NCBI RefSeq assembly: GCF_006716745.1
Contig: NZ_VFPP01000001.1
Location: 1,488,001 to 1,552,000 of the forward strand
DNA: 64,000 nt
Direction: 5' to 3'
Origin: Saccharothrix saharensis
Lineage (GTDB): Bacteria > Actinomycetota > Actinomycetes > Mycobacteriales > Pseudonocardiaceae
Of this stretch, positions 43,646 through 62,413 are shown one piece after another; positions within the stretch are counted from its first letter, which is position 1; each line of letters starts with the position of its first letter. The notes below the pieces were generated by a model, which had not been told where the DNA came from, ran no database searches, and worked only from the letters and a program-made list of their open reading frames with translations. Both the position numbers and the translations under genes were made by a program.

Positions 43646-43660
43646 GGGACCTACGACCCT
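43646..43660 (-). promoter_or_regulatory. DosR/DevR-like box 1
   Basis: GGGACCTACGACCCT, matching the core of the mycobacterial DosR palindrome (GGGAC, 4 bases, G, 1 base, CCC). It lies about 97 bp upstream of the start at 43549 and so could control the whole operon from 43549 to 37708. Assignment is by motif similarity. Confidence 0.6.
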
Positions 43661-43679
43661 GAGCGGCGGGTGGCGGTCG

Positions 43680-44269
43680 TCATCGGTTCTCCGCCGCGTC
43701 CCCGGAGGCCGCCACGTGCACGCCGGCGCTCACGACGCCGCGCACCGCCTCGGCCAGGGCGACGACGACCTCGCACGACTCCTCGTCGGCGAACACCGTG
43801 CCGATGTCGACGTGGCCGTCCCGGACGGTCACCGACCAGCGGCCGTTCGGGTCGTAGGCGTCGAGGCAGTCCCGCACGTCGACCGCGATGGAGGCGTCCG
43901 TGCGCGCCAGCGCCCGCACCAGGTCGTGCCGCGTCACGACGCCGACCAGCTGGGAGCCGTCCACTATCGGCCGCAGCGGACCCCGCCGTCGACCATCACG
44001 CCCGCGATGCAGCGGTCCGGCGCGGAGGAGTCCATCCCGAGGACCGGTGTGGTCAACACGTCACCCACCGGGGTGTCACCGGGGTCGCTGTCGGCGTACC
44101 GGCCGCGCAGCAGGTCGGTGTCGGTGACGATGCCGATGAGTCGCCGGTCACCGTCGACCACGGGCAGCGCCGTGAACCCGTGCGACGCCATCAACGCCGC
44201 CGCCACCCGGATCGGCACGTTCGCGGTCACCGTGATGACCGGGCTGGTCATGAAGTCCCGTGCTCGCAC
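43680..44269 (-). pseudogene. CBS-BON protein split by a frameshift in CBS domain 2
   Basis: Starting from a GTG at 44269 with AAGGAGG, the frame encodes one complete CBS domain (FMTSPVITVTANVPIRVAAAL) and the start of a second, then hits TAG at 43964 after GVMVDGGVRCGR. A GTG overlapping that stop (TAGTG) opens a second frame that resumes exactly in CBS domain 2 (DGSQLVGVVTRHDLVRAL) and adds a BON-like tail. One inserted base near 43977 would restore a single protein of about 195 residues. It may be a real frameshift, a sequencing error or a translationally coupled split gene. A weak DosR-like box is 60 bp upstream. Confidence 0.75.
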
Positions 44270-44328
44270 GGCGCACCTCCTTCGTCGTAGGAGGTCTCCG
44301 ACGTTAGGAAGGCGTTGTTCTCGTGACA

Positions 44329-44343
44329 GCGGTCAATGGTCCC
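44329..44343 (-). promoter_or_regulatory. DosR-like box 2 (weaker)
   Basis: On the minus strand GGGACCATTGACCGC; the left half fits the consensus, the right half has one mismatch in CCC. It is 60 bp upstream of the CBS start at 44269. The remaining sequence to 44560 holds scattered GGTCCC half-sites but no other feature I can support. Confidence 0.4.
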
Positions 44344-44560
44344 GGCCGGTCAGGGCCCAACGGCGGATCGTGCGCAGTGCCGGCGTCGAGTGCGGCGCGA
44401 ACGGCGCGCCACCGGAGCACTTGGTCCCGAACACCCCAGGGCCCTACCTACACGGAGGGCGCTGCTCAGGACCCACCTGGATTGATGCCCTCGTGGCGTG
44501 TCGGACGGGTGGTGAGGCGACGGACAGTGGACACCTGAACGTGAAACCACGGAGCCGACC

Positions 44561-44932
44561 ATGTCCACGCTGCTGACGACCGCCCGACACGACGCCTACG
44601 CCGGGGTGCGCGACCGGAAGCTCGCCGCCGTGCTGACCGCCGAGGACGACGCCGAGGAAACCGGGTTCAACCCGCTCGAACGCATCAGCTGCCGCATCCA
44701 CCGCCGCTGGCTGCACCAATGCGTGCACTCCCAGGCACACGTCATCGCCGTGACCGGCCACCGCTGGTGCCGCGACTGCCAGTGCCCCGCATCCGTCAGC
44801 GTCGACGAACTCACCGGCACGGTCACCGTCCGCTGCCAGCGCTGCCTGCGCACCCCGGACGGCCCCGCCACCCGCCAACTGGTGCGCTGCTGCCGCGCCA
44901 GCCTCGCCAACGCCCAGGACAGCCGGCGGTGA
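44561..44932 (+). CDS. Small Cys-rich zinc-ribbon-like protein
   Basis: A 123-residue protein with paired cysteines: RWCRDCQC and, 17 residues later, VRCQRCLR, a plausible zinc ribbon, plus CRIHRRWLHQCVH upstream. I do not recognise a named family. It starts a plus-strand gene and converges with the DUF1918 gene, stops seven bases apart. Confidence 0.75.
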   Translation: MSTLLTTARHDAYAGVRDRKLAAVLTAEDDAEETGFNPLERISCRIHRRWLHQCVHSQAHVIAVTGHRWCRDCQCPASVSVDELTGTVTVRCQRCLRTPDGPATRQLVRCCRASLANAQDSRR

Positions 44933-44938
44933 CCGATC

Positions 44939-45175
44939 TCATCGCGCCGTCGCGTCAACCGCCGCAGCCGCGCGGCGTGCCTCCTCCTCGGCGCTCACCA
45001 CATGGGCGTCCGGACCGGGAAACACCAGCGTCCTCATGTCGCTGTCCACCCAGTGCACCGGGTAGGGCGGTGAGCCGTCGGCGTGCCGCAGTTCAACCAC
45101 CTGGCCACGGCGCGTGGACGCATTCAAGGTGACACCCTCCACCACCACCCAGTCACCGACTCGTGCCTTCACCAC
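44939..45175 (-). CDS. DUF1918 domain protein
   Basis: A 78-residue SH3-like small protein of the DUF1918 type: VKARVGDWVVVEGVTL, ELRHADGSPPYPVHWVD and LVFPGPDAHVV are the family hallmarks. It starts at GTG 45175 or 45172. Such proteins recur in mycobacterial and actinomycete stress loci, and the function is unknown. The coding frame continues upstream, but that part is antisense to an ABC ATPase remnant. Confidence 0.85.
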   Translation of the reverse strand: MVKARVGDWVVVEGVTLNASTRRGQVVELRHADGSPPYPVHWVDSDMRTLVFPGPDAHVVSAEEEARRAAAAVDATAR

Positions 45176-45220
45176 GACGGTCGCCTGACCGACAAAGATC
45201 GGGGATTGGGCAGACGGCGG

Positions 45221-45430
45221 GAGCCCGCCAGTGGCCTGGACCCGATGGCTCAGCGCGAGTTCCACGCCCACCTGCGCGAATTCGTCGCCGACGGCGGGAC
45301 CGCGCTGTTCTCCTGGCACGTGCTGTCGGAGGTCGAACAGGTGGGCGTTGCGGGCGTTGACGTTCGACTTCGCCGAGCCGGTGCCCGCCGGTGCTTTCGA
45401 GACCGTCGCCGGCGTGCGGAAGGTACGAGC
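45221..45430 (+). pseudogene. Fragment of an ABC transporter ATPase
   Basis: The sequence reads [19 protein letters not shown] and [17 protein letters not shown], the Walker B/D-loop/H-loop part of an ABC ATPase (with Trp for the usual Ser before His). After a frameshift near 45350 it reads [20 protein letters not shown], the typical C-terminal tail of the same ATPase class. Walker A and the signature motif are missing. It is a relic. Confidence 0.7.
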
Positions 45431-45514
45431 AGCAGCAGCGACTCGCGCGACGAGGATTCCGACGTCGCGAGCAAGCCGTGCTCGTCCAGCTTCGACCGGC
45501 GACACGATGCCCCC

Positions 45515-45529
45515 AGGGCCGGAGGTCCC
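45515..45529 (-). promoter_or_regulatory. DosR-like box 3
   Basis: On the minus strand GGGACCTCCGGCCCT, a good match to the DosR core. It forms a pair with the box at 45573 (58 bp apart), upstream of the DUF7455-DUF1876-DUF4342 genes. Confidence 0.55.
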
Positions 45530-45572
45530 GACCGGCCGGTGCTCGTGCGTGGACCCGGATCCCGACCGGCGC

Positions 45573-45587
45573 GGGTCGAAGGTCCCT
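45573..45587 (-). promoter_or_regulatory. DosR-like box 4
   Basis: On the minus strand AGGGACCTTCGACCC, a very good match to the DosR core. It lies 55 bp upstream of the ATG at 45643. Confidence 0.6.
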
Positions 45588-45642: not shown

Positions 45643-45846
45643 ATGACCATCGCGCTCGACACGATCACGACCGCCTTGAACCCCGTAGTCGACCGGTGCG
45701 ACCGGTGCGGTGCGCGTGCCTGGGTGCGCGTGGTGCTGGAAGACGGGCAGTTGACGTTCTGCGACCACCACGAACGCCGGCACCGAGCCGCGCTGGAGCG
45801 CGTCGCCGTGAGGATCGAGCACCACGTCGACGTCCGCGACAGCTGA
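45643..45846 (+). CDS. DUF7455 family small protein
   Basis: A 67-residue protein with the pattern [19 protein letters not shown] and [10 protein letters not shown], a small zinc-binding-looking family (DUF7455) widespread in actinobacteria. It is first of three plus-strand small genes ending at a strong terminator. The start is fixed by the two DosR-like boxes upstream and by the end of the ABC remnant. Confidence 0.85.
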
Positions 45847-45875
45847 CCACCGGCCACCCGAGTGGAGGAGGACCT

Positions 45876-46145
45876 ATGGGAGAGACCAAGCAGTGGAGCG
45901 TCGACATCACCATCGATGAGCACGACGACAAGACCAGAGCGAAGGCGCGCCTGCACGCACGGGACGACACCCACCTGGTCGGTGTCGGCACCGCGAGGCT
46001 GAACCCCGCCGACACCAACATCCCCGAGATCGGCGACGAACTCGCCACGGCGAGGGCGCTGTCCGACCTCGCGCACCAGCTCCTCGACGCGGCGACGACC
46101 GATATCGAGGACGTCACCCACAGGCCGGCGCACCTGACCAGGTGA
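45876..46145 (+). CDS. DUF1876 protein (Rv1738-like, probable ribosome hibernation factor)
   Basis: An 89-residue protein of the DUF1876 family: [33 protein letters not shown] and [20 protein letters not shown] are the typical blocks. The family includes Rv1738, strongly DosR-induced and structurally similar to hibernation-promoting factors. It has a GGAGGAGG ribosome binding site. It probably slows translation under oxygen limitation; this is inference from the family. Confidence 0.9.
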
Positions 46146-46163
46146 CCGGAACGGAGGTTCGAC

Positions 46164-46427
46164 ATGACCGAGCAGTTGGCAGCCGGCACGATGACGCGCC
46201 TGCGCGGGGAAGCGCTGGTGCGGAAGGTCAGGGAGCTGCTGCACGAGGGCAACGTCCGGCGTCTCGTCATCAAGGACGACAAGGGGCACACCGTGATGGA
46301 GATCCCCGTGACGGCTGGGGTCGTCGCCGCGGTGGTCGCCCCCGTCGTGACCGCGGTCGCGGCGATCGCGGCCCTCGCGAGCGAATGGTCGATCGACGTC
46401 GAGCGTCACGAGCCACCGCAGACCTGA
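46164..46427 (+). CDS. DUF4342 domain protein
   Basis: An 87-residue protein with the DUF4342 pattern: GEALVRKVRELLHEGNVRRLVIKDD, EIPVTAGVVAAVVAPVVTAV as a hydrophobic segment, then a charged tail. Possibly a small membrane-associated protein. It is last in the three-gene run before the 46433 terminator. Confidence 0.85.
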   Translation: MTEQLAAGTMTRLRGEALVRKVRELLHEGNVRRLVIKDDKGHTVMEIPVTAGVVAAVVAPVVTAVAAIAALASEWSIDVERHEPPQT

Positions 46428-46432
46428 TCACG

Positions 46433-46482: not shown

Positions 46483-46551
46483 GCCCCTGCCCGCGACCCG
46501 ATCGGCACCCGACGATGAAGGGACAGCGACACCGACCCGGTGGAGGAGACG

Positions 46552-47667
46552 ATGACGAGCACATCGATCCGACCGTCCGTCACGACAGGGCCGCGTTTCG
46601 GTTACCTGGTCGGCGGAGTGGTCGACGTGGTCTTGGTGGTCCTGATCAACGTCTCACCGGGATGGCGGGCCGTTCCGTTCCTCACCGAAGACGCGGTCGA
46701 CGTGGTGGTGTGGGTCAACGCGGGTCTGGTCGTCGGGGTCGTCGTCAACACCACCTGCTCGCTGTTCCCCGGACGGAGGCTGGTCCTGCTCGGTGACGTG
46801 CTGACGACGACGGCGGCGCTGGCCGCGCTGACCTCCATGTCGGCGGTGTGGCCGTTCCGCCTACAGGACGCGGAGATCCCGTGGACGACGATCGCACGCG
46901 CGACGCTGACCATCGTGCTCGTCGCCGTGTCCATCGCCCTCGTGGTCCAGGTCGTCAAGCTGCTGCACGCGTTGGTGGCGCCGGACGTCCCGGTCGATCA
47001 GGGACCTTGGACCGCGTCGCACAGCCGGCATCGACGCGAAGCTCATGGCGAAGACCGGAACACGAGGAGAGAAGCCATGACAGCGATCAGCCACTCCGGC
47101 GCCACGACCGGGGCCACCGCCCGCTCGACCACCACGACGGCCACGCGTGCCGACACCGGCGCGATGGCGCTGGCGGTCCTGCGGATCACGACCGGGTTCG
47201 TGTTCCTGTGGGCGTTCTTCGACAAGTTGTTCGGGCTGGGTTACGCCACCAAGGCGGCCAACGCCTGGGTCAACGGCGGGTCGCCCACCAAGGGCTTCCT
47301 CAGCCGCGTCGCGGTCGGCCCGTTCGAGTCCACCTTCCACGCCTGGGCCGGTGCCTGGTGGGCCGACTGGCTGTTCATGCTCGGCCTGCTCGCCATCGGC
47401 ATCGCGGTCATGGCGGGCATCGGCCTGCGCCCGGCAGCGGTCGCGGGAACCCTGATGATGCTGCTCATGTGGGCCGCCGAATGGCCCCTCGCCCAGTTCA
47501 CCTCGACCGGCGAACCCAGCATGTCCACCAACCCGATCATCGACTACCACGTCATCTACGCCGTCGCCCTGATCGCCGTCGCGTTGGCCGGTGCGGGCGC
47601 CACCTGGGGCCTCGGCCGCTGGTGGGCGACCCTGCCGGTGGTCCGCGACCACGCCTGGCTGCGGTGA
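46552..47667 (+). CDS. 4-TM protein whose frame runs uninterrupted into DoxX
   Basis: From ATG 46552 (GGAGGAG upstream) the first 145 residues form a membrane protein with about four helices (LVGGVVDVVLVVLINVSPGW, VVVWVNAGLVVGVVVN and others), similar to hypothetical proteins in actinobacterial dormancy islands. There is no stop; after a charged linker (HSRHRREAHGEDRNTRREA) the frame continues through the DoxX start at 47077. Either the first gene has lost its stop and makes a 371-residue fusion, or the linker is mostly untranslated and DoxX is made from its own start. Confidence 0.6.
   Translation: MTSTSIRPSVTTGPRFGYLVGGVVDVVLVVLINVSPGWRAVPFLTEDAVDVVVWVNAGLVVGVVVNTTCSLFPGRRLVLLGDVLTTTAALAALTSMSAVWPFRLQDAEIPWTTIARATLTIVLVAVSIALVVQVVKLLHALVAPDVPVDQGPWTASHSRHRREAHGEDRNTRREAMTAISHSGATTGATARSTTTTATRADTGAMALAVLRITTGFVFLWAFFDKLFGLGYATKAANAWVNGGSPTKGFLSRVAVGPFESTFHAWAGAWWADWLFMLGLLAIGIAVMAGIGLRPAAVAGTLMMLLMWAAEWPLAQFTSTGEPSMSTNPIIDYHVIYAVALIAVALAGAGATWGLGRWWATLPVVRDHAWLR
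47001..47015 (+). promoter_or_regulatory. DosR-like box 5 inside the open frame upstream of doxX
   Basis: GGGACCTTGGACCGC lies 62 bp upstream of the DoxX ATG, within the linker of the fused frame. It supports independent transcription of doxX. Confidence 0.5.
47077..47667 (+). CDS. DoxX-like membrane protein
   Basis: A 196-residue protein starting at ATG 47077 with GAGGAG. After a Thr/Ala-rich N-terminus it has four helices typical of DoxX: LAVLRITTGFVFLWAFFDK, LFMLGLLAIGIAVMAGIG, a third around GTLMMLLMWAAEW and a fourth near IYAVALIAVALAG. The FDKLFGLGYATKAANAWVNGGSPTKGFL segment is typical of actinobacterial DoxX. DoxX proteins take part in membrane redox or oxidative-stress complexes. 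Confidence 0.82.
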   Translation: MTAISHSGATTGATARSTTTTATRADTGAMALAVLRITTGFVFLWAFFDKLFGLGYATKAANAWVNGGSPTKGFLSRVAVGPFESTFHAWAGAWWADWLFMLGLLAIGIAVMAGIGLRPAAVAGTLMMLLMWAAEWPLAQFTSTGEPSMSTNPIIDYHVIYAVALIAVALAGAGATWGLGRWWATLPVVRDHAWLR

Positions 47668-49711: not shown

Positions 49712-50326
49712 TCACCCTGCGCCGTCGTGGTCCGGCACCTCGACGCCGACCACTCCTGCCACCGCACCGGCCACCACCGTGGCTACGTGACGTTCCACAT
49801 CGTCAGCACCTTCACCCGCCAGTGTGACCACCCCTCGGGTGACTGAGATCCGCCACGGGATGCGCCCCGCCGCGACGGAGAGCTGGCGCCGCACGTCCGT
49901 CGCGATGACGTCGTCGTTCCTGGCGATCATGCGCAGGAGGTCGCGCCTGCTGACGACGCCGACGAGGACCCCGTCCCGCACGATCGGGACGGTGCGCAGG
50001 TGCTTGTCCAGCATGAGCTTGCTCAGCTCAGCCACGTGCATCCGCGGGTCGACCGCGACCACGTCGGTCACCATGACCTCCGCGACGGTTGTCGACGCCG
50101 GTGCGAGCGGTTCTGGCGGCTGTCCGTGCACGAAGGTCCGCGGGTCGGGCAGGATGCGGTTGCGCAGCAGGTCCGCCTCCGCGACCACGCCGACCAGGCG
50201 GTCGCGGCCGTCGACCACCGGCAGCGTGGTGAAGCCGTGCTCCACCAGCAGTCGCGCGGCGTCCTTGGCCGCCATGCCGGGCTGTGCGGTCACCACGGCG
50301 CGGGTCATCAAGTCCTGGGCCTTCAT
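49712..50326 (-). CDS. Two-CBS plus BON domain protein (copy 3)
   Basis: A 204-residue protein with two CBS domains (DLMTRAVVTAQPGMAAKDAARLL; EVMVTDVVAVDPRMHVAELSKLM) and a C-terminal BON-like domain (ISVTRGVVTLAGEGADDV). It resembles Hrp1-type CBS proteins of the mycobacterial DosR regulon, with an added BON. The start ATG 50326 was chosen because the CBS begins there. Confidence 0.92.
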   Translation of the reverse strand: MKAQDLMTRAVVTAQPGMAAKDAARLLVEHGFTTLPVVDGRDRLVGVVAEADLLRNRILPDPRTFVHGQPPEPLAPASTTVAEVMVTDVVAVDPRMHVAELSKLMLDKHLRTVPIVRDGVLVGVVSRRDLLRMIARNDDVIATDVRRQLSVAAGRIPWRISVTRGVVTLAGEGADDVERHVATVVAGAVAGVVGVEVPDHDGAG

Positions 50327-50487: not shown

Positions 50488-51000
50488 TCACGCCCGGCTC
50501 GTGGCGCGGATGCCCTTGGCCCAGGTCCTCGCACGGTCGATCTCACCGTCCGACAGGGGTCCGGGGGTGCCTCCCACGTAGAACGACATCGGCGCGCCGG
50601 CGGCGGCGAAGCGCAGGCGGCGCAGGCGCTTCGCGATCGCCTTGGCCGCCGAGCCCGGCAGCCATCCCACCTTGACCCTGGTGTCGAACGCGACGGCGCT
50701 GACGGGTCGGTCGGCGGGTGCGAGCGCGTCAAGCCACTCCCGCACGCCGCGACCCCGCGACACCAGCTCGCCGGTCGCCTGGTCGGCCGCCGACTCGCGA
50801 GTGGAGGCCCGACTGAGGCCGAACGCGTGCGTCGGCGCGCCGACCACGAGCAGGTCGACGTCACCGGGCAGCACGTCCGGTGCCTCCCCGACCTCCACGA
50901 CGTCGACCTGCCTGCCTTCCGCCAAGCCCGCGCGCACCGCCTCGGCGACCGCTTCGGTGTTGCCGAACATGGATTCGAAGACCACGAGTGCCCGTGCCAT
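50488..51000 (-). CDS. Flavodoxin family protein
   Basis: A 170-residue flavodoxin. The FMN phosphate loop is ESMFGNTEAVAEAV, followed by LLVVGAPTHAFGLS and a central TRESA region. It is divergent from the adh-pflB-pflA operon across a 155-bp gap containing a DosR-like box. In E. coli, flavodoxin reduces the pyruvate formate-lyase activase, so this protein may be the electron donor for PflA here. Confidence 0.9.
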   Translation of the reverse strand: MARALVVFESMFGNTEAVAEAVRAGLAEGRQVDVVEVGEAPDVLPGDVDLLVVGAPTHAFGLSRASTRESAADQATGELVSRGRGVREWLDALAPADRPVSAVAFDTRVKVGWLPGSAAKAIAKRLRRLRFAAAGAPMSFYVGGTPGPLSDGEIDRARTWAKGIRATSRA

Positions 51001-51083
51001 CGTCGGTACCGCCCTCCATCGTCACCCCACCACGCTCCTCCACCCGCGGTCCGGTCGTCAGCGGCCAACAGCCCTGCCCACCC

Positions 51084-51098
51084 GGGACCTCGGACCCT
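51084..51098 (+). promoter_or_regulatory. DosR-like box 6 in the flavodoxin/adh-pfl divergent promoter
   Basis: GGGACCTCGGACCCT differs from box 1 at two positions only. It lies 57 bp upstream of the adh start and 84 bp upstream of the flavodoxin start, so it could control both directions. Confidence 0.65.
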
Positions 51099-51155: not shown

Positions 51156-52193
51156 ATGAAGGCGCTCGTTTATCACGGTCCCGGCCGCAGGGCCTGGGAG
51201 GACGTGCCGGACCCGGAGCCGGTCGACCCGACCGACGCGATCGTGCGGATCACCGCCGCCACGATCTGCGGCACGGACCTGCACATCCTCAAGGGCGACG
51301 TGCCCGAGGTGGAGCCCGGTCGGATCCTGGGCCACGAGGGTGTCGGTGTGGTCGAGCGGGTCGGTGCGGCGGTCACCGGGATCAAGCCGGGCGACCGGGT
51401 GCTGCTGTCGTGCATCAGCACGTGCGGTCGGTGCTCGTACTGCCGGACCGGTGTCTACGGGCAGTGCCTCGGCGGTGGCGGTTGGGTCCTGGGCCACACC
51501 GTGAACGGCACGCACGCTGAGTACGTGCGGGTGCCGTTCGCGGACACCTCGACCTACCTGCTGCCCGACGGTGTCACCGACGCCGCGGCGGTCATGCTGT
51601 CGGACATCCTGCCCACCGCGTTCGAGGTCGGCGTGCTCGCCGGAAAGGTCCAGCCCGGTCAGACGGTGGTCGTCGTGGGTGCCGGGCCGATCGGCCTGGC
51701 GGCGATCGAGACCGCGCGCCTCTACAGCCCCGCGCACGTCGTGGCGGTGGACCTGGCCGAGTCGCGGCTGGAGGCGGCCAAGCAGTTCGGCGCGGACGTC
51801 ACGGTGAACGCGGCCGACGACGTCGAGCGGGTCGTGCTCGAGCTGACCGGCGGGCTGGGCGCGGACCTGGCGATCGAGGCGGTGGGCGTGCCGGAGACCT
51901 TCGAGCTGTGCGCGCGGCTGATCCGCCCCGGTGGTCGGGTCGCGAACGTCGGCGTGCACGGCAAGCCGGCCACGCTGCACCTGGAGCAGCTGTGGATCCG
52001 CAACGTCACCATCACCACCGGCCTGGTCGACACGGTCACCACGCCGACCCTGCTCACGATGCTGGCTGGCGGGCGGCTGGACGCCGACCGGTTCGCCACG
52101 CACCACTTCGCGCTGGACGAGATGGACCTCGCCTACGACGTGTTCGCGCGGGCCGGCGAGACCGGCGCGCTGAAGGTGGTGCTGACCCGATGA
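51156..52193 (+). CDS. Zinc-dependent alcohol dehydrogenase
   Basis: A 345-residue medium-chain dehydrogenase. Catalytic zinc ligands are in [12 protein letters not shown] and GHEGVGVVE; the structural zinc cysteines are in [17 protein letters not shown]; the NAD motif is [14 protein letters not shown]. It is similar to alcohol/threonine dehydrogenases with a GTDLHI motif. The stop overlaps the pflB start (ATGA), so it probably reoxidises NADH by reducing an aldehyde during fermentation. GAGGAGGA ribosome binding site. Confidence 0.93.
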
Positions 52194-54436
52194 CCGCCGT
52201 GGAAGAACGGCTGGACGCGTGGACCGGGTTCCGCGGCGTGGACTGGCGGCACGACATCGACGTGCGCGGGTTCATCCAGGCCAACTACACCCCTTACGAG
52301 GGGGATGACGCGTTCCTGACCGGGCCGACCGAGCGGACCGCGGCACTGTGGCGGGACCTGTCCGGCCTGTTCGCCGAGGAGCGCAGGCGCGGCATCCTGG
52401 ACGTGGACGTGCACACCCCGTCCACCATCACCTCCCACCGCCCCGGCTACCTCGACCGGGCGCAGGAGTTGATCGTCGGGTTGCAGACCGACGCACCGCT
52501 CAAGCGGGCCATCATGCCCAACGGCGGCCTGCGCATGGTGGAGGCCGGTCTGGAGGCTTACGGCTACGAGCTGGAACCGGCTGTGCGGGACATCTTCACC
52601 AAGTACCGCAAGACGCACAACGACGGTGTGTTCGACGCCTACACCGACGAGATCAAGCGCGCCCGCCGCGCCGGGGTGATCACCGGTCTGCCCGACTCCT
52701 ACGGGCGGGGGCGGATCATCGGCGACTACCGGCGGGTCGCGCTGTACGGCGTGGACCGGCTGATCGACGCCAAGCGGGCCGAGCGGGCCGCGATCGACAC
52801 CATGCCGTCCACAGAGGACATCATCCGCGACCGCGAGGAGCTCGCCGAGCAGATCCGCGCCCTGGACGAGCTCAAGCAGATGGCGCGGTCCTACGGCGAC
52901 GACATCTCCCGACCCGCCACCACCGCCCGCGAGGCCGTCCAGTGGCTCTACTACGCCTACCTGGCGGCGGTGAAGGAACAGAACGGCGCGGCGATGTCAC
53001 TGGGCCGCACCTCGACGTTCCTGGACGTCTACCTCCAGCGCGACCTTGACGCCGGACTGTTGACCGAGTCGCGGGCGCAGGAGCTGATCGACGACCTGGT
53101 GATCAAGCTGCGGATCGTGCGGTTCCTGCGCACCCCCGCCTACGACGAACTGTTCTCCGGCGACCCGACCTGGGTCACCGAGAGCATCGGCGGCATCGGC
53201 GAGGACGGTCGCCCACTCGTGACCAGGACGAGCTTCCGGTTCCTGCAGACCCTCTACAACCTGGGGCCGGCGCCGGAGCCGAACCTGACCGTGCTGTGGT
53301 CGCCCGCGCTGCCGGAGGGCTTCAAGCGGTTCTGCGCGAAGGTGTCGGTGGACACCAGCTCGATCCAGTACGAGAACGACGAGCTGATCCGGCCCCGCTT
53401 CGGCGACGACACCGCGATCGCCTGCTGCGTGTCGGCCATGAGGGTCGGCAAGCAGATGCAGTTCTTCGGCGCACGGGTCAACCTGGCCAAGGCGCTGCTC
53501 TACGCGATCAACGGCGGCCGCGACGAGATGACCGGCGAACAGGTCGCCCCGCACCAACCCCGGATCACCGGCGAGTACCTGGACTACGACGAGGTGCGCG
53601 CGGCGTTCGACCGGATGCTCGACTGGCTGGCCCGCACCTACGTGGACGCGCTGAACATCATCCACTACATGCACGACAAGTACGCCTACGAACGCATCGA
53701 GATGGCCCTGCACGACCACCCCGCCCAACGGCTGCTCGGCTGCGGCATCGCGGGCCTGTCGGTCGTCACGGACAGCCTCTCGGCGATCAAGCACGCGAAG
53801 GTGCGCGTCCTCCGCGACGACACCGGCCTGGCCGTCGACTTCGCGGTGGAGGGCGACTTCCCCCGCTACGGCAACAACGACGACCGCGCCGACACCATCG
53901 CGGTGGGATTGGTCGAGGACTTCATGGCGCTCGTGCGCCGCTACCCCGCCTACCGCGACGCCGTGCACACCCAATCGGTACTCACCATCACGTCCAACGT
54001 CGTCTACGGCCGTCACACCGGCAACACGCCGGACGGCAGGCGCGCGGGCGAGCCGTTCGCGCCCGGCGCCAACCCGATGAACGGCCGGGACCGGCACGGT
54101 CTGGTCGCGGCGGCGCTGTCGGTGGCCAAGCTGCCCTACGACGCCGCGCTCGACGGCATCTCGCTCACCGCCGGCATCACGCCGAACGGGCTGGGCCGCG
54201 ACACCGAGGAGCGGGTGATCAACCTCGTCGGCGTGCTCGACGCCTACACCGACGCCGGTGGCTTCCACCTCAACGCCAACGTGCTCAACCGGGAGGTCCT
54301 GCTCGACGCCATGGCACACCCGGACAAGTACCCGCAGCTGACCATCCGCGTGTCCGGCTACGCCGTCAACTTCGTGCGCCTGACACCCGAACAGCAGCGC
54401 GACGTGGTCAACCGCACGTTCCACGGAGGACTGTGA
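52190..54436 (+). CDS. pflB: Pyruvate formate-lyase
   Basis: A 748-residue glycyl-radical enzyme that splits pyruvate and CoA to acetyl-CoA and formate. The active-site pair Cys412-Cys413 (AIACCVSAM) distinguishes true PFL from other glycyl-radical enzymes. The radical glycine is Gly723 in RVSGYAVNF. Blocks such as [11 protein letters not shown] and [24 protein letters not shown] are almost as in E. coli PflB (760 residues). PFL is oxygen-sensitive and unusual in mostly aerobic actinomycetes. Coupled to adh upstream and pflA downstream. Confidence 0.95.
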
Positions 54437-55161
54437 TGACCACCGGGGCCGTCCACTCCTGGGACCTCGCCACGGCCGTGGACGGCCCCGGCACCCGGTT
54501 CGTGGTGTTCACCGCAGGGTGCCCGCTGCGCTGCCTGTACTGCCACAACCCCGAGACGCGGTTCACGCGGTACGGGCGACGCGTCAGCGTGGACGACGTC
54601 ATGGTCGAGATCGAGGAGTACCGCCGGTTCATCGAGATCGCCGGTGGTGGCGTGACCATCAGCGGCGGCGAACCGCTGCTGCAACCGGAGTTCACCGCCG
54701 AGCTGCTGCACGCGGTGAAGGGCATGGGCCTGCACACCGCCCTGGACACCTCCGGGTTCCTCGGCCACCGCGCCACCGACCGACTGCTCGCCGCCACCGA
54801 CCTGGTGCTGCTGGACATCAAGTCCTGGGACCCGGCCACCTACCGGCACGTCACCGGCGGCGAGGTCGCCCCGACCCTGCGGTTCGCCCGCCGCCTGTCG
54901 GACCTGGGCAAGCCGATGTGGATCAGGTTCGTCCTGGTGCCAGGACAGACCGACGCGCCGGACAACGTGGAGGGCATCGCCTCGTTCGTCGCCACCCTGC
55001 CACCGGTCGAACGCGTGGACGTGCTGCCGTTCCACAAGATGGGCGCACCGAAGTACGAGGCCATCGGGCTGCCCTTCGCCTTGGCCGACACCCCGACCCC
55101 CGACGCGAAGCTGGTCGAACGGGTTCGGGGTCAGTTCCTGGCGCACGGTCTGCGGGCGTGA
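54436..55161 (+). CDS. pflA: Pyruvate formate-lyase activating enzyme
   Basis: A 241-residue radical-SAM activase that installs the glycyl radical on PflB. The cluster ligands are Cys29, Cys33 and Cys36 (GCPLRCLYCHN, the PflA-type C-x3-C-x2-C), then GGGVTISGGEPLLQ for SAM binding. The start overlaps the pflB stop by one base (TGATG). No extra ferredoxin-like cluster insert is present, as expected for PflA. Confidence 0.95.
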   Translation: MTTGAVHSWDLATAVDGPGTRFVVFTAGCPLRCLYCHNPETRFTRYGRRVSVDDVMVEIEEYRRFIEIAGGGVTISGGEPLLQPEFTAELLHAVKGMGLHTALDTSGFLGHRATDRLLAATDLVLLDIKSWDPATYRHVTGGEVAPTLRFARRLSDLGKPMWIRFVLVPGQTDAPDNVEGIASFVATLPPVERVDVLPFHKMGAPKYEAIGLPFALADTPTPDAKLVERVRGQFLAHGLRA

Positions 55162-55172: not shown

Positions 55173-56780
55173 TCAGGGCAGGAGGTCCCGTTCCCGCAGC
55201 AGGGAGCGGGCGTGGTCGATGGCGTCGGGCGTGTGGTCGAACAGGCGCAGGTCCAGCGTGTCCAAAGCACGCCGGTGTTCGTCGCGCACGCCGGAGACCA
55301 GGACGGTGATGCCGCGGTGTTCCAGGCGGCGCACGGCGTCGCGCAGCACCTGCACGCCGGTGGCGTCGACGGCCGACAGCCGCGACATCCGCAGGATCAC
55401 CACCGCGACGGGCGCGACCTCGGTCAGCTCCAGCAGGAACCGGTGCGCGGCGGCGAACAGCAGCGGGCCGTCCAGCCGGTAGGCGACGATGTGCTGGGCC
55501 AGCAGGGCCTGCTCTTCCTCGCGGTAGTCGCCCGGTTCCAGCGGCACCTCCTCCAGCCGCGCTGTGCGTGACACGGCCCGCAGGGCGAACACGCCGGCGA
55601 GCACGAGGCCGACGATGACGGCGGTGACGAGGTCCAGCGCGAGCGTCGCCACGGCGGTCAGCGCGAGCACGGCGGCATCGGTGCGGCCGGCCCGGGCCAG
55701 GGCGCGCACCGAGCCGACCTCGACCATCCGGACGGCCGTGGCCAGCAGCACGCCGGCGAGCACCGCGAGCGGGACACCGGCCACCCACGGCGCGGCGACC
55801 AGGACGATCAGCAGGAGCACCACGGCGTGGGTGAGGGCCGCGAGCCGGGAGGTCGCGCCCGAGCGGACGTTGACCGCCGTGCGCGCGATGGCCGCCGTGG
55901 CGGGCACACCGCCGAACAGCGGCGCGACCAGGTTGGCCAGGCCCTGACCGAACAACTCGCGATCCGGGTCGTGCCGCTGGTTCACGCTCATCCCGTCCGC
56001 GACGGCCGCCGACAGCAGGCTCTCCAGCGCGGCGAGCGCCGCCACCGCCACCGCCGACGGCAGCAGCGACCACAACGCGCCGAGGTCGAGGAACCCGAGC
56101 GACGGCGCGGGCAGCGCTCTCGGCAGCGCCCCGATCGTCACCACGGGCAGCGCCGCCCACTGCGCGACGACGGTCGCCACGACGACCGCGGGCAGCGAGA
56201 AGGGCACGCCGGGACGCCACCGGGCGCCGATCAGCATCACCAAGGCGACCCCGGCGGCCAGGGCGACGGCCTCCCAGCGCGGTGCCGCGACGAAGTCCGC
56301 GAACGCCTCGACGGCGGCGAGCACCACGTGGTCCTCGCCGGGCGTGGACACCCCCAGGGCCGCGGGCACCTGCTGCAACGCGATCACCGCCGCGATGCCG
56401 ATCGTGAAACCCTCCACCACCGGCACGGGCACGTACCGCATGTAGCGGCCCGCGCGGGCGACCGCGAGCAGTACCAGCAGGATCCCGGCCAACAGACCGA
56501 CGGTGAGCACGCCGTCCACGCCGTAGCGCGCGACGATCGGCACCAGCACCACCGTCATCGCGCCCGTGGGACCGGACACCTGGAGGCTGGAGCCGCCGAA
56601 CACCGCCGCCAGCGCGCCCGCCACCACGGCCGTGACGAGGCCGGACGCCGCGCCGAGCCCGGAGGCGACCCCGAACCCGAGGGCGAGCGGCAGGGCCACG
56701 ATCGCCACCGTCACCCCGGCCACGAGGTCCCGGCGCGTCGCACCCGACCAGTCGGCCCTGGCCGGCAGGAACGTCGTCAC
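55173..56780 (-). CDS. SulP-family anion transporter with STAS domain
   Basis: A 535-residue SulP transporter with about ten to twelve helices (start ADWSGATRRDLVAGVTVAIVALPLALGFG), a conserved SGPTGAMT motif and a C-terminal STAS domain (RMSRLSAVDATGVQVLRDAV). Substrates of the family are sulfate, bicarbonate or organic anions. Its GTG overlaps the arsR stop (GTGA). In a fermenting cell a bicarbonate or carboxylate role is possible; that is inference. Confidence 0.92.
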   Translation of the reverse strand: MTTFLPARADWSGATRRDLVAGVTVAIVALPLALGFGVASGLGAASGLVTAVVAGALAAVFGGSSLQVSGPTGAMTVVLVPIVARYGVDGVLTVGLLAGILLVLLAVARAGRYMRYVPVPVVEGFTIGIAAVIALQQVPAALGVSTPGEDHVVLAAVEAFADFVAAPRWEAVALAAGVALVMLIGARWRPGVPFSLPAVVVATVVAQWAALPVVTIGALPRALPAPSLGFLDLGALWSLLPSAVAVAALAALESLLSAAVADGMSVNQRHDPDRELFGQGLANLVAPLFGGVPATAAIARTAVNVRSGATSRLAALTHAVVLLLIVLVAAPWVAGVPLAVLAGVLLATAVRMVEVGSVRALARAGRTDAAVLALTAVATLALDLVTAVIVGLVLAGVFALRAVSRTARLEEVPLEPGDYREEEQALLAQHIVAYRLDGPLLFAAAHRFLLELTEVAPVAVVILRMSRLSAVDATGVQVLRDAVRRLEHRGITVLVSGVRDEHRRALDTLDLRLFDHTPDAIDHARSLLRERDLLP

Positions 56781-57127: not shown

Positions 57128-57161
57128 GTTGTAGAGTTGCAAACTTCTTCAACTCTACAAC
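57128..57161. promoter_or_regulatory. Perfect 12-bp inverted repeat, probable ArsR operator
   Basis: GTTGTAGAGTTG (57128-57139) and CAACTCTACAAC (57150-57161) are perfect inverted arms with a 10-base spacer, in an AT-rich patch just upstream of arsR. This is the usual arrangement of an autoregulatory ArsR site. It overlaps the end of ackA, so arsR-sulP can be regulated apart from the upstream genes. Confidence 0.75.
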
Positions 57162-58228
57162 ATGGCACCGGTGGCCAACGCGGCCCGCGTACCGGCCGCG
57201 ACCTCGACGTCCTCGCGGGCGGTGACCACCCAGACCGGCGTCCGGGACGTCTTCGCGCCGATCCCGGCATCGTCCGAAGCCGCGGCGTTGGCCTCCCGAT
57301 CGAGGGTGAGACCCAGGAAGGACAGGCCCTCCACCACCCGGGCGCGCACGTCGGCGTCGTGCTCACCGATGCCACCGGTGAAGACCAGCAGGTCCAGTCC
57401 ACCCATCGACGCGGCCATGGTGGCGATGCCCTGGCGCAGGCGGTGGGTGAAGACGTCGAGGGCCAGACGTGCGTTCGCATCACCCCGGGCCGCGGCGGCG
57501 TGCACGTCGCGCAGGTCGGCGTGACCGGCCAGCCCCACCAGCCCGGAGTGGTGCGCGAGGCCGTCGGCGAGCTCGTCGGCGGTGAGGTGGTCGAGCAGGT
57601 GCAGCACCAGGCCGGGGTCGAGGTCGCCGCTGCGGGTGGCCATCGGCAGGCCGGCCAGCGGGGTGAAGCCCATCGTGGTGTCGACCGAGCGGCCGTCGTG
57701 GACGGCGGCCAGCGAGCAGCCCGCGCCGAGGTGGCAGGTCACGACGCGGGAGCCGCCGCCGGCCAGTTCGACCGCGCGGCGGGAGGCGTAGGCGTGCGAG
57801 AGGCCGTGGAAGCCGTAGCGGCGCAGGTCCCAGCGCTCCCGCCAGGCGGCGGGCAGCGGGTAGGTGGCCGCGGCGGCGGGCAGGGTGCGGTGGAACGCGG
57901 TGTCGAAGCACGCCACGTGCGGCACGTCGGGGAACAGCGCTTGCGCGGCGTCGATGCCGGCCAGTGCCCTGGGCTGGTGCAGCGGGGCCAGGTCGGTCAG
58001 GTCCTCGATCCCGCGGCGGACGTCGGGGGTGATGACGGTCGGGGCGGTGAACCGGGTGCCGCCTTGGACGACGCGGTGGCCCACGGCGTGCACGAGCGGC
58101 AGGGCCGGGTCGAGGTCGGGTGTGCCGTCCCACCGCTCGACGTGGTGCTGGGCGAGGACGGTGTCGTCCTCGCCCAGCACGCTCAGCTTCAGGCTCGATG
58201 AGCCCGCGTTGACCACGAGCACGTTCAT
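57155..58228 (-). CDS. ackA: Acetate kinase
   Basis: A 357-residue acetate kinase making ATP from acetyl-phosphate. Motifs seen are NAGSSSLKLS, FDTAFHRTLP, YGFHGLSHAY, CHLGAGCSLAAV and VFTGGIGEHDADVR. It is about 40 residues shorter than E. coli AckA. The start overlaps the phosphoketolase stop (TGATG), so acetyl-phosphate from phosphoketolase feeds directly to it. Confidence 0.93.
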   Translation of the reverse strand: MNVLVVNAGSSSLKLSVLGEDDTVLAQHHVERWDGTPDLDPALPLVHAVGHRVVQGGTRFTAPTVITPDVRRGIEDLTDLAPLHQPRALAGIDAAQALFPDVPHVACFDTAFHRTLPAAAATYPLPAAWRERWDLRRYGFHGLSHAYASRRAVELAGGGSRVVTCHLGAGCSLAAVHDGRSVDTTMGFTPLAGLPMATRSGDLDPGLVLHLLDHLTADELADGLAHHSGLVGLAGHADLRDVHAAAARGDANARLALDVFTHRLRQGIATMAASMGGLDLLVFTGGIGEHDADVRARVVEGLSFLGLTLDREANAAASDDAGIGAKTSRTPVWVVTAREDVEVAAGTRAALATGAML

Positions 58229-60585
58229 CAGCAGGGCCAGGTCCAGTCGCGGATCTCGGGCAGGTCCTCGCCGTGCTCGCGGATGTGGGCGTGGTGGCGG
58301 GTGCGCTGGTCCTGCATGTGCTGGCGCAGGCCGGCGGCCTTGGGACCGAGGCCCGGCACGCGGTCGATGACGTCGATGACGAGCCGGTAGCGGTCCATGT
58401 CGTTGAGCACCAGCATGTCGAACGGCGTGGTGGTGGTGCCCTCCTCCTTGTAGCCGCGGACGTGGATGTTGTGGTGGTTGGTGCGGCGGTAGGTCAAGCG
58501 GTGGATCAGCCACGGGTAGCCGTGGTAGGCGAACAGCACCGGCTTGTCCGGGGTGAACAGGGCGTCGAACTCGCGGTCGGGCATGCCGTGCGGGTGCTCG
58601 GTCTCGGGCTGCAGGCGCATCAGGTCGACCACGTTGACCACGCGCACCTTCAGCTCGGGCAGGTGCTCGCGCAGCAACGCGGTAGCCGCCATGATCTCCA
58701 GGGTCGGGGCGTCACCGGCGCAGGCGAGCACCACGTCGGGTTCGGTCAGGCCGTCGTCCGTGCCCGCCCACTCCCAGATGCCCGCGCCGCGAGCGCAGTG
58801 CAGCGCCGCTTCCTCCGGGCTGAGCCAGTCGGGCGTGAAGTTCTTGCCGGAGACGATGACGTTGACGTAGTCGCGGCTGCGCAGGCAGTGGTCGGCCACC
58901 GACAGCAGCGTGTTGGTGTCCGCGGGCAGGTAGACGCGGACGACCTCGGCCTTCTTGTTCATCACGTGGTCGATGAAGCCGGGGTCCTGGTGGGAGAAGC
59001 CGTTGTGGTCCTGGCGCCACACGTGCGAGGACAGCAGGTAGTTCAGCGACGCGACCGGGCGCCGCCAGTCGATCTCGCGGTGGGTCTTGAGCCACTTGGC
59101 GTGCTGGTTGAACATCGAGTCCACGATGTGGGTGAACGCCTCGTAGCAGTTGAACAGGCCGTGCCGCCCCGTCAACAGGTAGCCCTCCAGGAAGCCCTGG
59201 CACAGGTGCTCGGACAGCACCTCCACCACCCGGCCGTTGGCCTCCAGGTGCTCGTCGGTGGGCAGCTTCTCGGCCAACCACTGCTTCGCCGTCACCTCGA
59301 ACACCGCGTCGAGCCGGTTGGAGGCGGTCTCGTCGGGGCCGAACACGCGGAAGTTCTTCTCATCCGCGTTGAGGGTCATGATGTCGCGCAGCATGCGGCC
59401 CAGAGCACGGGTCGGCTCGGAGGTGGTGGTGCCGTGCTTGGTCACCTCCACCGAGTACGGCGCGGTGCCGGGCATCCGCAGGTCACGCAGCAGCAGACCG
59501 CCGTTGGCGTGCGGGATGGCGCCCATGCGCGACTCGCCGCGCGGCGCGAGGGTCAGCAGCTCGGGCTTCGGGCTGCCGTCGGCGTCGAACAGCTCCTCCG
59601 GCCGATAGGAGCGCAGCCACCGCTCCAGCAACACCAGGTGCTCGGGGTTGTCCCGGACACCGGCCAGCGGCACCTGGTGGGACCGCCACGTGCCCTCCAC
59701 CGGCACGCCGTCCACCTCGGCCGGTCCGGTCCAGCCCTTCGGCGTGCGCAGCACGATCATCGGCCACCGCGGGCGCTCGGTGTCCCCGGCGCGGGCCGCC
59801 TCCTGGATGCGGCCGATCTCGTCGAACACCTCGTCGAAGACCTGCGCCATGCGGGGGTGCAGCACCGCCGGATCGTCGCCCTCGACGTAGTAGGGCGCGT
59901 AGCCGTGACCGCGCAGCATCGCGTCCAGCTCCTCGTGCGGGATACGCGCCAGGATCGTCGGATTGGCGATCTTGTAGCCGTTGAGGTGCAGGATCGGCAG
60001 CACCGCGCCGTCGTGCGCCGGGTCCAGGAACTTCGTGCCGTGCCAGCTCGCCGCCAGCGGCCCGGTCTCCGCCTCGCCGTCACCCACGACGCAGGCCACC
60101 ACCAGGTCGGGGTTGTCGAACGCCGCGCCGAACGCGTGCGCCAGCGAGTAGCCCAGCTCACCGCCCTCGTGGATCGAGCCCGGCACCTCCGGGGCGACGT
60201 GACTGGGCACGCCGCCGGGGAACGAGAACTGGCGGAACAACGTGCGCATCCCCTCGCCGTCACGCGGCACGTTCGGGTGCGTGTCGGTGTAGGAGCCCTC
60301 CAACCAGGTGTTGGCCAGCAGCGCCGGACCACCGTGACCCGGACCGGTCACGAACAGCACGTCCCGGGAGCGGTCGTTGATCACTCGGTTGAGGTGGGCG
60401 TAGAGGAAGTTCAGACCCGGCGTGGTGCCCCAGTGGCCCAGCAGACGGGGCTTGATGTGCTCCGGGGTCAGCGGCTCGGTCAGCAGGGGGTTGTCGAGCA
60501 GGTAGATCTGCCCTGCCGAGAGGTAGTTGGCGGCCCGCCAGTAGGCGTCAACCAGGTCGAGGTTGAGGGGTCCGGACTGCGACAT
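58228..60585 (-). CDS. xfp: Phosphoketolase
   Basis: A 785-residue thiamine diphosphate-dependent phosphoketolase that cleaves xylulose-5-phosphate and/or fructose-6-phosphate to acetyl-phosphate. The family-start [36 protein letters not shown], the TPP site [22 protein letters not shown] and [11 protein letters not shown] are characteristic. Length is normal. It forms an operon with ackA. A DosR-like box is 89 bp upstream. Confidence 0.95.
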
Positions 60586-60673
60586 CTCGCGTTCTCCTCC
60601 TGTGTCGGGGTGCTGACACCAGCCTGCCTTCGGAACCGATTCCGCCTCAGGGCACGCGGCCCTCGACCTGACA

Positions 60674-60688
60674 GGGTCCTTCGGCCTT
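60674..60688 (-). promoter_or_regulatory. DosR-like box 7 (weaker)
   Basis: On the minus strand AGGCCGAAGGACCCT; the right half (G-ACCCT) fits the core, the left half is degenerate. It lies between xfp (89 bp) and the divergent membrane-protein gene (56 bp). Confidence 0.35.
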
Positions 60689-60744
60689 CATCCGGTGACT
60701 TGTGGCGCTGTCGGCCCGCGCACCGCAAGGCGCACGGTCGGCGC

Positions 60745-61185
60745 ATGGACGGGACACCTCGCGTCACGACGGTCCTCGTCGCCGGGTTCGTCGCGCTCAA
60801 CGCGATGGCCGGGAGCTTCGGCTTGCTGGGAGGCGGCATCGACATGGGCCCGACCATCACGGGCCTATTCCCCTGGCACAGCGCTGCGGTCGCCGGGATC
60901 TCACTGCTGGCGGTGGTCGGTGTGCCGATGGCCACCGCGGTGCTACTGGCGCTGCGCCGCGACCAGCGCTGGAGCGTCGCGTCGATGGCCGCGGGTCTCG
61001 TGCTCGTCGGCTGGATCGTCGTGCAGGTGGCGGTGATCCGCACCTTCAGCTGGATGCAGCCTGCTTCGGTGATCGCGGGGCTCGTGGTCTACGCCGCCGG
61101 ACGGCGGGGGCGAAACGCGTCGGACGTCCCGGTGCGACGAGGACCTTCGCCCGCTTCCACACGACGCCCGCGACGGGACGCTTGA
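60745..61185 (+). CDS. Small membrane protein
   Basis: A 146-residue protein with four predicted helices (TTVLVAGFVALNAMAGSFGLL, AAVAGISLLAVVGVPMATAVLL, SVASMAAGLVLVGWIVVQVAV, ASVIAGLVVYAAG) and a basic tail. No family recognised. It is divergent from the xfp-ackA operon. Confidence 0.7.
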   Translation: MDGTPRVTTVLVAGFVALNAMAGSFGLLGGGIDMGPTITGLFPWHSAAVAGISLLAVVGVPMATAVLLALRRDQRWSVASMAAGLVLVGWIVVQVAVIRTFSWMQPASVIAGLVVYAAGRRGRNASDVPVRRGPSPASTRRPRRDA

Positions 61186-61349
61186 GTCCAGGAAGATGAC
61201 TGAAGGAGACGAGAGCACACCGAGCCTCATCGATTCGACACCCGCGTCGGCCATCGAGTCGCCCGGGATCACCACTGCGGCCGCCTGGCAGTTGCGGCAA
61301 CGGCGGCGAGGACAGGGACGGGGCCGGCACGGCGACCTCGAAGCCGACC

Positions 61350-61450
61350 GGAGGACAGCATGTCGTGCCCGTCGGCGCCCAGCCGGCAGACGGCCTCGAC
61401 CGAGGTGGGACCACCTGTGGTGACCCCCGCTTCATCCAGCACGTCGTCAC
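61350..61450 (-). pseudogene. Remnant of the N-terminus of a second P-type cation ATPase
   Basis: Directly after, and overlapping, the CBS-BON stop (GTGA, as at 41093-41096), the sequence reads GTG ACG ACG then, after one missing base, VLDEAGVTTGGPTSVEAVCRL. This matches the N-terminus of the intact ATPase at 38556-41096 (TTVLDAAARTTGGLTSAEAARRL). It stops after about 30 codons. The CBS-BON/ATPase pair was thus duplicated and the second ATPase lost. Confidence 0.7.
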
Positions 61451-62127
61451 CCGGTCCGGTGACCGGTCTCGGTGTCGTCCCAGGTGTGGGTCAACTCGCT
61501 CACGACATCCACGACACCGGGCAGCGCCCTGGTCAGCCGGACGGCGATGTCGACCTCACTGCGGCGCTCGATGTGGCCCCGCAACGTGACCACGCCGTCC
61601 GCCACCTGCACCTCGACCGCAGTGGGCTCCAGCCACAGTGTGCGCCTCATGACCTCCTGCGTGATCTCCCGCCGCAGCTCGGTGTCGGTGCGCAGGAAGA
61701 CGCGCAGCAGGTCCCGGCGGGAGAGCACGCCGATCAACCGGCCTTCGCCGTCGACGACGAACAGCCTGCGCACGCCCGCCGCGGTCAACTGGTGCGCGGC
61801 GGAGCTCGCGGGTTCGTCGGGACCGGCGGTGATGACCGGGCCCGTCATCACCTCGGCCGCGGTCGTGCCGTGCGCCTGACGCCAGCGCTTCCTCGTCTCG
61901 GGCTTGGCGAACGGCGGCGGCGCCACTTCGGTGCCGCCCCGGTACTCCTCCTTGGGCAACAGGTCGGCTTCCGAGACCACACCGACCGGGTGACCCTCGT
62001 CGTCCACGACCGGCACGGCGCTGAACGCGCCCGCGGTCAAGGTGGCGGCGAGTTCCTTGAACGACGTGCCGGCGCGGACGCTGACCACCTCGCCTGTCAT
62101 CAGCGAGGAGACAGTGGGTTCACGCAT
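61447..62127 (-). CDS. Two-CBS plus BON domain protein (copy 2)
   Basis: A 226-residue protein of the same length and architecture as copy 1 at 41093-41773 and highly similar to it (LPKEEYRGGTE, RRLFVVDGEGRLIGVLSRRDLLRVFLRTD, WLEPTAVEVQVADGVVTLRGHIERRSE). Two CBS domains and a BON domain. In copy 1 the partner is the cation ATPase; here only a fragment of it remains, so this protein may act alone or on the ATPase in trans. Confidence 0.92.
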   Translation of the reverse strand: MREPTVSSLMTGEVVSVRAGTSFKELAATLTAGAFSAVPVVDDEGHPVGVVSEADLLPKEEYRGGTEVAPPPFAKPETRKRWRQAHGTTAAEVMTGPVITAGPDEPASSAAHQLTAAGVRRLFVVDGEGRLIGVLSRRDLLRVFLRTDTELRREITQEVMRRTLWLEPTAVEVQVADGVVTLRGHIERRSEVDIAVRLTRALPGVVDVVSELTHTWDDTETGHRTG

Positions 62128-62331
62128 GGCTCTCTCCCGTCTTCAGAGCGGACCGGGTCGGGATGGGACTCCGAGTCGGAGGCAGAGGCGCCCGACCTCG
62201 TTGCGCGCCAACCGCACAACGGGCCCGATCTCCACCGTTCGACCTGCTCGGCTGATCCGGTACCTCCAGCCTCGTCCGAGGGGGTGCGGAGGCACAGAGT
62301 CCTTGGTCGTCCCGAACGTCCTGGGCCCGTC

Positions 62332-62346
62332 GGGACCTTGGCCCCT
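62332..62346 (+). promoter_or_regulatory. DosR-like box 8
   Basis: GGGACCTTGGCCCCT, a strong match to the DosR core. It lies 102 bp upstream of the HPF-like gene and about 205 bp from the divergent CBS-BON start. Confidence 0.6.
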
Positions 62347-62398
62347 GCGACGGAAGCGGTGTCACCGTCGGCGGTGGGGTCCGAGGACCCGGTCCGAC

Positions 62399-62413
62399 GG
62401 GATCTTCGGTCCC
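62399..62413. promoter_or_regulatory. DosR-like box 9
   Basis: GGGATCTTCGGTCCC on the plus strand; the minus strand reads GGGACCGAAGATCCC. It lies 35 bp upstream of the HPF-like start and 53 bp from box 8, a tandem arrangement typical of strongly DosR-induced promoters. Confidence 0.55.

Follow-up and report, generated by a model that had tools for sequence, protein, structure and literature searches.

Candidate DevR/OsdR-type boxes before stress, fermentation and cytochrome bd oxidase genes in Saccharothrix saharensis

We analyzed a 64,000-nucleotide stretch of the Saccharothrix saharensis genome (contig NZ_VFPP01000001.1, positions 1,488,001 to 1,552,000; the window), in the second half of which short DevR/OsdR-type boxes stand before genes for universal stress proteins (Usp), CBS-domain proteins, a cation ATPase and a fermentation module built around pyruvate formate-lyase (PFL). 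The first-pass annotation of this DNA had listed nine boxes between 43646 and 62399, and a pattern search recovered all of them. The core GGGACC-N3-G-N-CCC, which had been claimed for seven, is exact at five sites (43646+, 45516-, 45573-, 51084+ and 62332+) and carries one mismatch at the other two (47001+ and 62400-); the two boxes described as weaker are also present, with one mismatch at 44330- and two at 60674+. The spacing of 35-115 bp between box and gene start proved true for all nine sites, given ATG 47077 as the start behind 47001. The boxes and genes are as follows (box scores are from the weight matrix described below; domain assignments are from Pfam unless noted).

37708-43549, minus strand: operon of a small open reading frame (orf; 43139-43549), a DUF4389 protein, a CBS-BON protein, a CtpF-like P-type cation ATPase and a double Usp protein.
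43645-43660, plus strand: DevR/OsdR-type box, score 21.6, ~96 bp before start 43549; weaker neighbour at 43610 (13.2).
43680-44251, minus strand: short protein with a CBS domain, and a small orf that has no Pfam match.
44329-44344, minus strand: weaker box, score 14.1, ~78 bp before the CBS gene start at 44251.
45515-45530, minus strand: box, score 17.8.
45572-45587, minus strand: box, score 20.3, ~56 bp before orf 45643.
45643-46427, plus strand: operon of a small orf, an Rv2632c-like (PF08962) protein and a DUF4342 protein.
47000-47015, plus strand: box not used to train the matrix, score 16.6, ~62 bp before ATG 47077.
47077-47667, plus strand: DoxX-like membrane protein (start moved to 47077; its Pfam match falls short of the curated cut-off).
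50488-50985, minus strand: flavodoxin-domain protein, divergent from the alcohol dehydrogenase (ADH)-PFL genes.
51083-51098, plus strand: second box not used to train the matrix, score 18.0, upstream of both ADH (~58 bp) and flavodoxin (~98 bp).
51156-52193, plus strand: zinc ADH family protein (no NCBIfam model above cut-off).
52190-54436, plus strand: PFL (formate C-acetyltransferase; TIGR01255 above equivalog cut-off).
54436-55161, plus strand: PFL activase (TIGR02493 above cut-off).
57155-60585, minus strand: phosphoketolase (58228-60585) and acetate kinase family protein (57155-58228) (Pfam, NCBIfam).
60673-60688, plus strand: box, score 18.0, ~88 bp before phosphoketolase.
61447-62127, minus strand: CBS-BON protein, divergent from the hibernation-factor-like gene.
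62331-62414, unstranded: three boxes at 62331, 62376 and 62398/62399, scores 18.2, 13.5 and 14.0, the nearest ~35 bp before 62449.
62449-62745, plus strand: short S30AE (ribosome hibernation factor-like) protein (Pfam above cut-off, NCBIfam below).
63603-64000, minus strand: 3' end of a GNAT/CoA-binding/ATP-grasp acyl-CoA synthetase that runs past the window, behind a box-bearing Usp gene.

The Usp, CtpF-like, CBS and Rv2632c-like families, shared with Mycobacterium tuberculosis, are all found behind boxes. The 20 kb directly past the window end (L032) also codes a Usp-OsmC-Usp-CBS-cation ATPase operon, and the Usp gene ahead of the acyl-CoA synthetase has its box at L032:2773 (score 21.0). 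The orf at 43549 has no Pfam match, and a 45%-identical counterpart heads the same operon behind a box in one relative (G009); the order orf45643, Rv2632c-like, DUF4342 is kept behind two boxes in another (G006). The flavodoxin-domain protein may serve as an electron donor to PFL activase. The profile match of the acetate kinase family protein starts at profile position 88, and its N-terminus is short or divergent. The acyl-CoA synthetase fusion (window 63603-64000 and L032:1-2428) may supply a further ATP-yielding acetate route. Window 46540-47076, ahead of the DoxX-like gene, has a strong coding signal in the DoxX-like frame with no stop codon, and the dip at ~46940-47060, which contains the 47001 box, looks non-coding.

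To score boxes quantitatively, a weight matrix was trained on 10 island boxes, with sites 47000 and 51083 held out; the held-out boxes reach 16.6 and 18.0. The scan added boxes 43610- and 62376, absent from the earlier list, and its positions 62398 and 62399 are one site; a further unlisted exact core match, 46451-, lies 24 bp past a stop codon and scores below 11. At a score of at least 12.5, no box occurs in 1-37 kb of the window, and 11 intergenic and 2 intragenic positions occur in 37-64 kb, box 47000 being tallied as intragenic because the gene caller put the gene start too early. The earlier statement that boxes are absent before 37 kb thus holds at this score, while at 11 or above one match appears (8670, score 12.1, intragenic). 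Past the window, six boxes of at least 12.5, all intergenic, lie in L032, and one, intragenic, in the following 40 kb; the matrix scan gave none in the 40 kb preceding the window. Control DNA from the same genome holds 1 such box in 43.8 kb of intergenic and 9 in 236 kb of intragenic sequence, and the background at 12 or above is 0.46 matches per 10 kb (280 kb of control stretches, same matrix). The island thus begins near 43.6 kb of the window and ends some 15-17 kb beyond it. Because the matrix was built from island boxes, there is some circularity in the counts within this genome; the relatives discussed below lie outside the training set. One box-like site (55175-55190, score 13.9) is not in a promoter position; it lies in the gap where the PFL activase and SulP genes converge.

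Genome totals alone would be consistent with a chance occurrence of the boxes in GC-rich DNA. In the whole genome (8.92 Mb) the exact core matches 38 times at 37 places, with 6 of these matches within window 43-64 kb, and its reversed pattern gives 66, so that there is no over-representation; the GGGACCT version gives 8 matches vs 5 for its reversed control, an excess that is not clear, and its T was picked only after the sites had been seen. A loose pattern with two mismatches allowed is rarer in the window than in shuffles (162 vs 313), and for this lack of enrichment it was dropped as no evidence. What contradicts chance is the location of the matches: 7 of the 8 GGGACCT sites fall inside genome 1531646-1567217 (from window 43646 to a point 15 kb beyond the window). 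To avoid the circularity of window-derived patterns, we used as an independent probe the 14-bp core GGGHCNWWNGNCCC of the published mycobacterial DevR consensus, as given in a supplementary-table legend of PMC2947987. This core is not clearly more frequent than its reversed control when counted strand-wise (43 vs 30 matches), but 7 of its 26 distinct genome places lie within the same 35.6 kb, where 0.10 would be expected (Poisson P ~2e-11). None of these 7 sites, nor the site before cydA described below, overlaps a called gene, while 14 of the remaining 18 are intragenic and 4 intergenic (Fisher P for the contrast, 3e-4). Those four were set aside as regulon members: two adjoin pectate-lyase-like and DUF6401/DUF6319 genes, unlike the targets, and two have no gene in promoter position. 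It is clustering and placement, not total count, that tell against chance; together with the conservation in relatives, they make a chance origin scarcely credible. The comparisons of motif density with controls, by the published core and by the matrix, thus left the proposed regulon standing.

The regulator had been placed outside the window, and a DevR orthologue, as judged by sequence, does lie 3.5 kb past the window end, beside a DosT/DevS-like double-GAF kinase. Among solved structures, this NarL/LuxR-type response regulator (L032:3528-4184) matches M. tuberculosis DevR best (3c3w, E 2e-85), with identity at 139 of 214 aligned positions (65%), recognition-helix stretch included, and the regulator gene has its own box at L032:3454 (score 16.5). 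The kinase (L032:4198-5892) has the architecture GAF-GAF-HisKA_3, and its first GAF domain best matches the DosT GAF structure 2vzw (E 3e-60, 99/148 identical). The HPPM stretch, in which we take the proximal histidine to sit, is conserved, and heme binding is predicted. The kinase gene shares a box (12.8) with a divergent nitroreductase-like gene, to which that box is closer. Unlike osdR-osdK, regulator and kinase are not in one operon here: the genes are arranged tail to tail, as they also are in 6/6 relatives that hold both side by side, and we do not regard the operon structure of the pair as defining the mechanism. We give a probability of roughly 0.85 to the reading that the boxes are operators of this DevR/OsdR-type two-component system, coded in the same island just past the window.

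A separate issue is the signal. Regulator and boxes could be real and yet respond to NO/redox state or development instead of low oxygen, as has been described for Streptomyces coelicolor DevSR/OsdKR. The passages of PMC5069765 that concern OsdKR describe control of stress and development, and the abstract of PMC10552308 terms S. coelicolor DevS/DevR NO-dependent; because the streptomycete relative behaves in this way, hypoxia as the signal is something we infer. Against the alternative, the kinase GAF domain is closest to DosT, which was deposited as a hypoxia sensor. In addition, the targets here (PFL, flavodoxin and cytochrome bd) work at low oxygen or are oxygen-sensitive. We consider a signal other than low oxygen possible, though less likely.

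The only GGGACCT site outside the island is a perfect palindrome ~60 bp before cydA, 3.2 Mb away from the island. It belongs to a cyd locus (L035:2294-9946, where L035 is genome 4719601-4739600) in which a cydA-cydB-ABC transporter operon lies beside a DevR-like regulator and a single-GAF kinase. Among 22 scorable relatives, a cydA box at -74/-75 reaches a score of at least 9 in 19 and at least 12 in 17 (one further stretch lacked cydA and another had cydA at its edge). This locus raises the possibility that the second regulator, at genome 4.72 Mb, reads the boxes wholly or in part, giving two overlapping regulons. The cyd-linked regulator is 62% identical to the island regulator, likewise matches DevR best among solved structures (E 4e-70), and lies 7 kb from the cydA box. 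Of 6 relatives in which the search turned up no island-type regulator, 5 retain the cydA box at -74/-75, which makes the neighbouring regulator a possible reader of it. On the other side, the island regulator is nearer DevR (288.9 vs 238.3 bits) and sits inside the island with a box before it in relatives; the cyd-linked kinase has a single GAF domain that none of the heme GAF structures matched at E 0.001; and most island boxes are less symmetric than the one at cyd. We hold a takeover or sharing of the boxes by the cyd-linked regulator to be an unlikely but serious alternative. The earlier claim that the island is one regulon is supported by the sequence evidence, with the qualification that some of the boxes may also be read by this distant second regulator. 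The genome has a third DevR-like regulator, at 6.07 Mb (56% identical).

To evaluate conservation, we compared 25 genomes of the genus, our own included; at most 120 candidates were scored per genome, so misses are possible. A DevR-like regulator is present in 25/25, of the island type (at least 86% identity) in 19, with a partial match in G008; 6 genomes hold more distant ones only. PFL occurs in 11 of the 25, all among the 19 with an island-type regulator, and a box of at least 12.3 lies within 1.5 kb upstream of PFL in 10/10 of the other PFL-bearing genomes; in G024 the box stands 294 bp before PFL itself. Over 10 stretches from 9 related genomes, boxes of at least 12.5 number 55 in 86 kb of intergenic sequence vs 6 in 290 kb of intragenic sequence. 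In five genomes (G001, G006, G007, G009 and G023) the island-type DevR regulator is present two or three times, at 88-94% identity to the query, which suggests island duplication or transfer.

We also tallied boxes of at least 12 within 200 bp of individual genes in 17 stretches from 16 genomes, dropping matches with less than 55% identity, less than half coverage, a start after residue 40 or less than 150 bp upstream. The devR gene is preceded by a box in 16/16 relatives. Boxes also precede the divergent nitroreductase-like gene (11/12) and the kinase gene (9/12), which share them, and ADH (6/6) and flavodoxin (5/5), which also share theirs; Usp genes have one in 9/10 (two Usp queries matched the same genes), DoxX in 4/4 and orf45643 in 1/1, while orf43549 was unscorable (0/0). 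In contrast, operon-internal controls gave none in 49 (PFL 0/7, activase 0/7, AckA 0/7, CtpA2 0/6, orf13687 0/9, orf14157 0/9, orf14666 0/4), and further internal genes gave 0/3 for CBS-BON, 0/1 for Rv2632c-like, 0/5 for DUF4389 and 1/4 for the CtpF ATPase.

Beyond the genus, we examined the best 80 of 586 confirmed PFL loci, of which 36 are actinobacterial and 44 are not, by record titles. A box of at least 12 within 300 bp before PFL is present at 21/36 actinobacterial loci vs 1/44 others (Fisher P 9e-9), and it is seen, among other genera, in Streptomyces, Actinomadura, Actinoplanes, Kineosporia, Cellulomonas, Cellulosimicrobium and Cryobacterium. Of the 36 actinobacterial PFL genomes, 35 were searched for a DevR-like protein, and 30 of these have one. 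In the open-access literature we found no link of DevR/OsdR or DosR with PFL, nor one of such a system with fermentation genes and a low-oxygen oxidase together, looser combinations being judged among the matches listed.

Several observations weigh against the regulon reading. Among PFL loci above 62% GC, the actinobacterial excess of boxes shrinks to 21/34 vs 1/7 (P 0.04); 15 of the 36 actinobacterial loci have no box of at least 12 within 300 bp; and the association of the PFL box with DevR, 19/30 with vs 1/5 without, has the expected direction but is a trend only (Fisher P 0.14), one box-bearing PFL genome (L078) having no DevR-like protein at the limit used. Within the island, the matrix scan gave no box of at least 11 before the SulP/ArsR, Na/H antiporter and DUF6544 genes or the CBS gene at 49712. 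In relatives, conservation is partial for phosphoketolase (boxes in 3/9), the S30AE hibernation factor (3/5) and the short CBS gene (3/6), the kinase was not found beside DevR in 3 of 9 relatives' DevR stretches (G001, G023, G024), and the related genomes are not independent of one another. A matrix built on the 26 sites that PMC5069765 gives for S. coelicolor separates the island weakly (5.2 vs 1.8 matches per 10 kb at score 7, with control DNA up to 15.7), because the published sites are mostly of the GGCC type; it was not used for site calling.

Outside the island, two adjacent genes at window 31351-34191 (466 and 469 aa) resemble a tandem duplication: both carry an identical 16-mer (32045, 33491), at a similar place in each gene.

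The system is of a known kind, the same kind as OsdR of S. coelicolor. According to PMC5069765, OsdKR (SCO0203/SCO0204, region SCO0167-SCO0219) likewise combines a DevR-type regulator and a DosT/DevS-like kinase in a Usp-rich region, has dehydrogenase and nitroreductase-family targets, and carries a site ahead of the gene for the regulator itself; in gel shifts, OsdR bound those of its predicted targets that were tried, the SCO5978/SCO5979 region among them. The 16-mer CGGGACCTTCGGCCCT, the site given before SCO5979 in Table 1 of that paper, is letter-identical to boxes L032:2773 and L032:15216, and the 14-bp core GGGACCTTCGGCCC is listed there likewise before SCO0167 and SCO0216. The differences lie in gene order (an osdR-osdK operon vs the tail-to-tail pair), in the sites (mostly GGCC-type vs mostly GGGACC-type) and in the energy targets (nitrate reductase and pyruvate phosphate dikinase vs the PFL and phosphoketolase modules); the terms "formate", "phosphoketolase" and "cyd" are absent from the main text of PMC5069765. 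For Rhodococcus equi, DosR boxes were predicted with the consensus used here and the genome has a phosphoketolase too, which the relevant passages of PMC2947987 do not link to a DosR box. The likeness to M. tuberculosis DevR/DosR-DosS/DosT consists of the 65% identical regulator, the heme-type GAF kinase and the box consensus. The mycobacterial DevR regulon, which in M. tuberculosis has a host-persistence setting, includes the Usp, CtpF-like ATPase, CBS and Rv2632c-like families; we know of no PFL module in it. What is less expected here is the predicted output to the PFL module, phosphoketolase-acetate kinase, a ribosome-hibernation-like protein and cytochrome bd oxidase.

We propose the following as the most likely course of signalling, binding, activation and physiological output. 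Heme in the first GAF domain of the DosT/DevS-like kinase would bind O2 and keep the kinase inactive; a fall in O2, or binding of NO or CO, would lead it to phosphorylate the DevR orthologue. The phosphorylated regulator would dimerise on the near-palindromic boxes, which are 14-16 bp long and located 35-115 bp ahead of operon starts, activating its own gene and switching on both the stress targets (universal stress proteins, CBS proteins, cation ATPases and the ribosome-hibernation-like protein) and an energy module (flavodoxin, ADH, PFL and its activase, phosphoketolase and acetate kinase), with fermentation as the presumed outcome. The same box before the distant cytochrome bd genes would add a high-affinity oxidase.

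A bolder reading, to which we give somewhat better than even odds, is that DevR/OsdR-family regulators across several actinobacterial orders, including Streptomyces, directly control glycyl-radical fermentation (flavodoxin, ADH, PFL and activase) and in many cases phosphoketolase-acetate kinase and cytochrome bd as well. The "dormancy regulon" would then be, in essence, a low-oxygen programme for conserving energy, and two DevR paralogues, one in the island with a heme-type kinase and one beside cydAB, would share the box. Streptomyces are usually regarded as obligate aerobes. The part deserving follow-up is the conserved box before the PFL and cytochrome bd genes, which would tie a dormancy switch to a fermentation pathway seldom credited to aerobic actinomycetes and to a high-affinity oxidase. 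If this is true, oxygen-starved cells would survive by a mixed-acid-type fermentation under the kind of regulator that governs mycobacterial dormancy.

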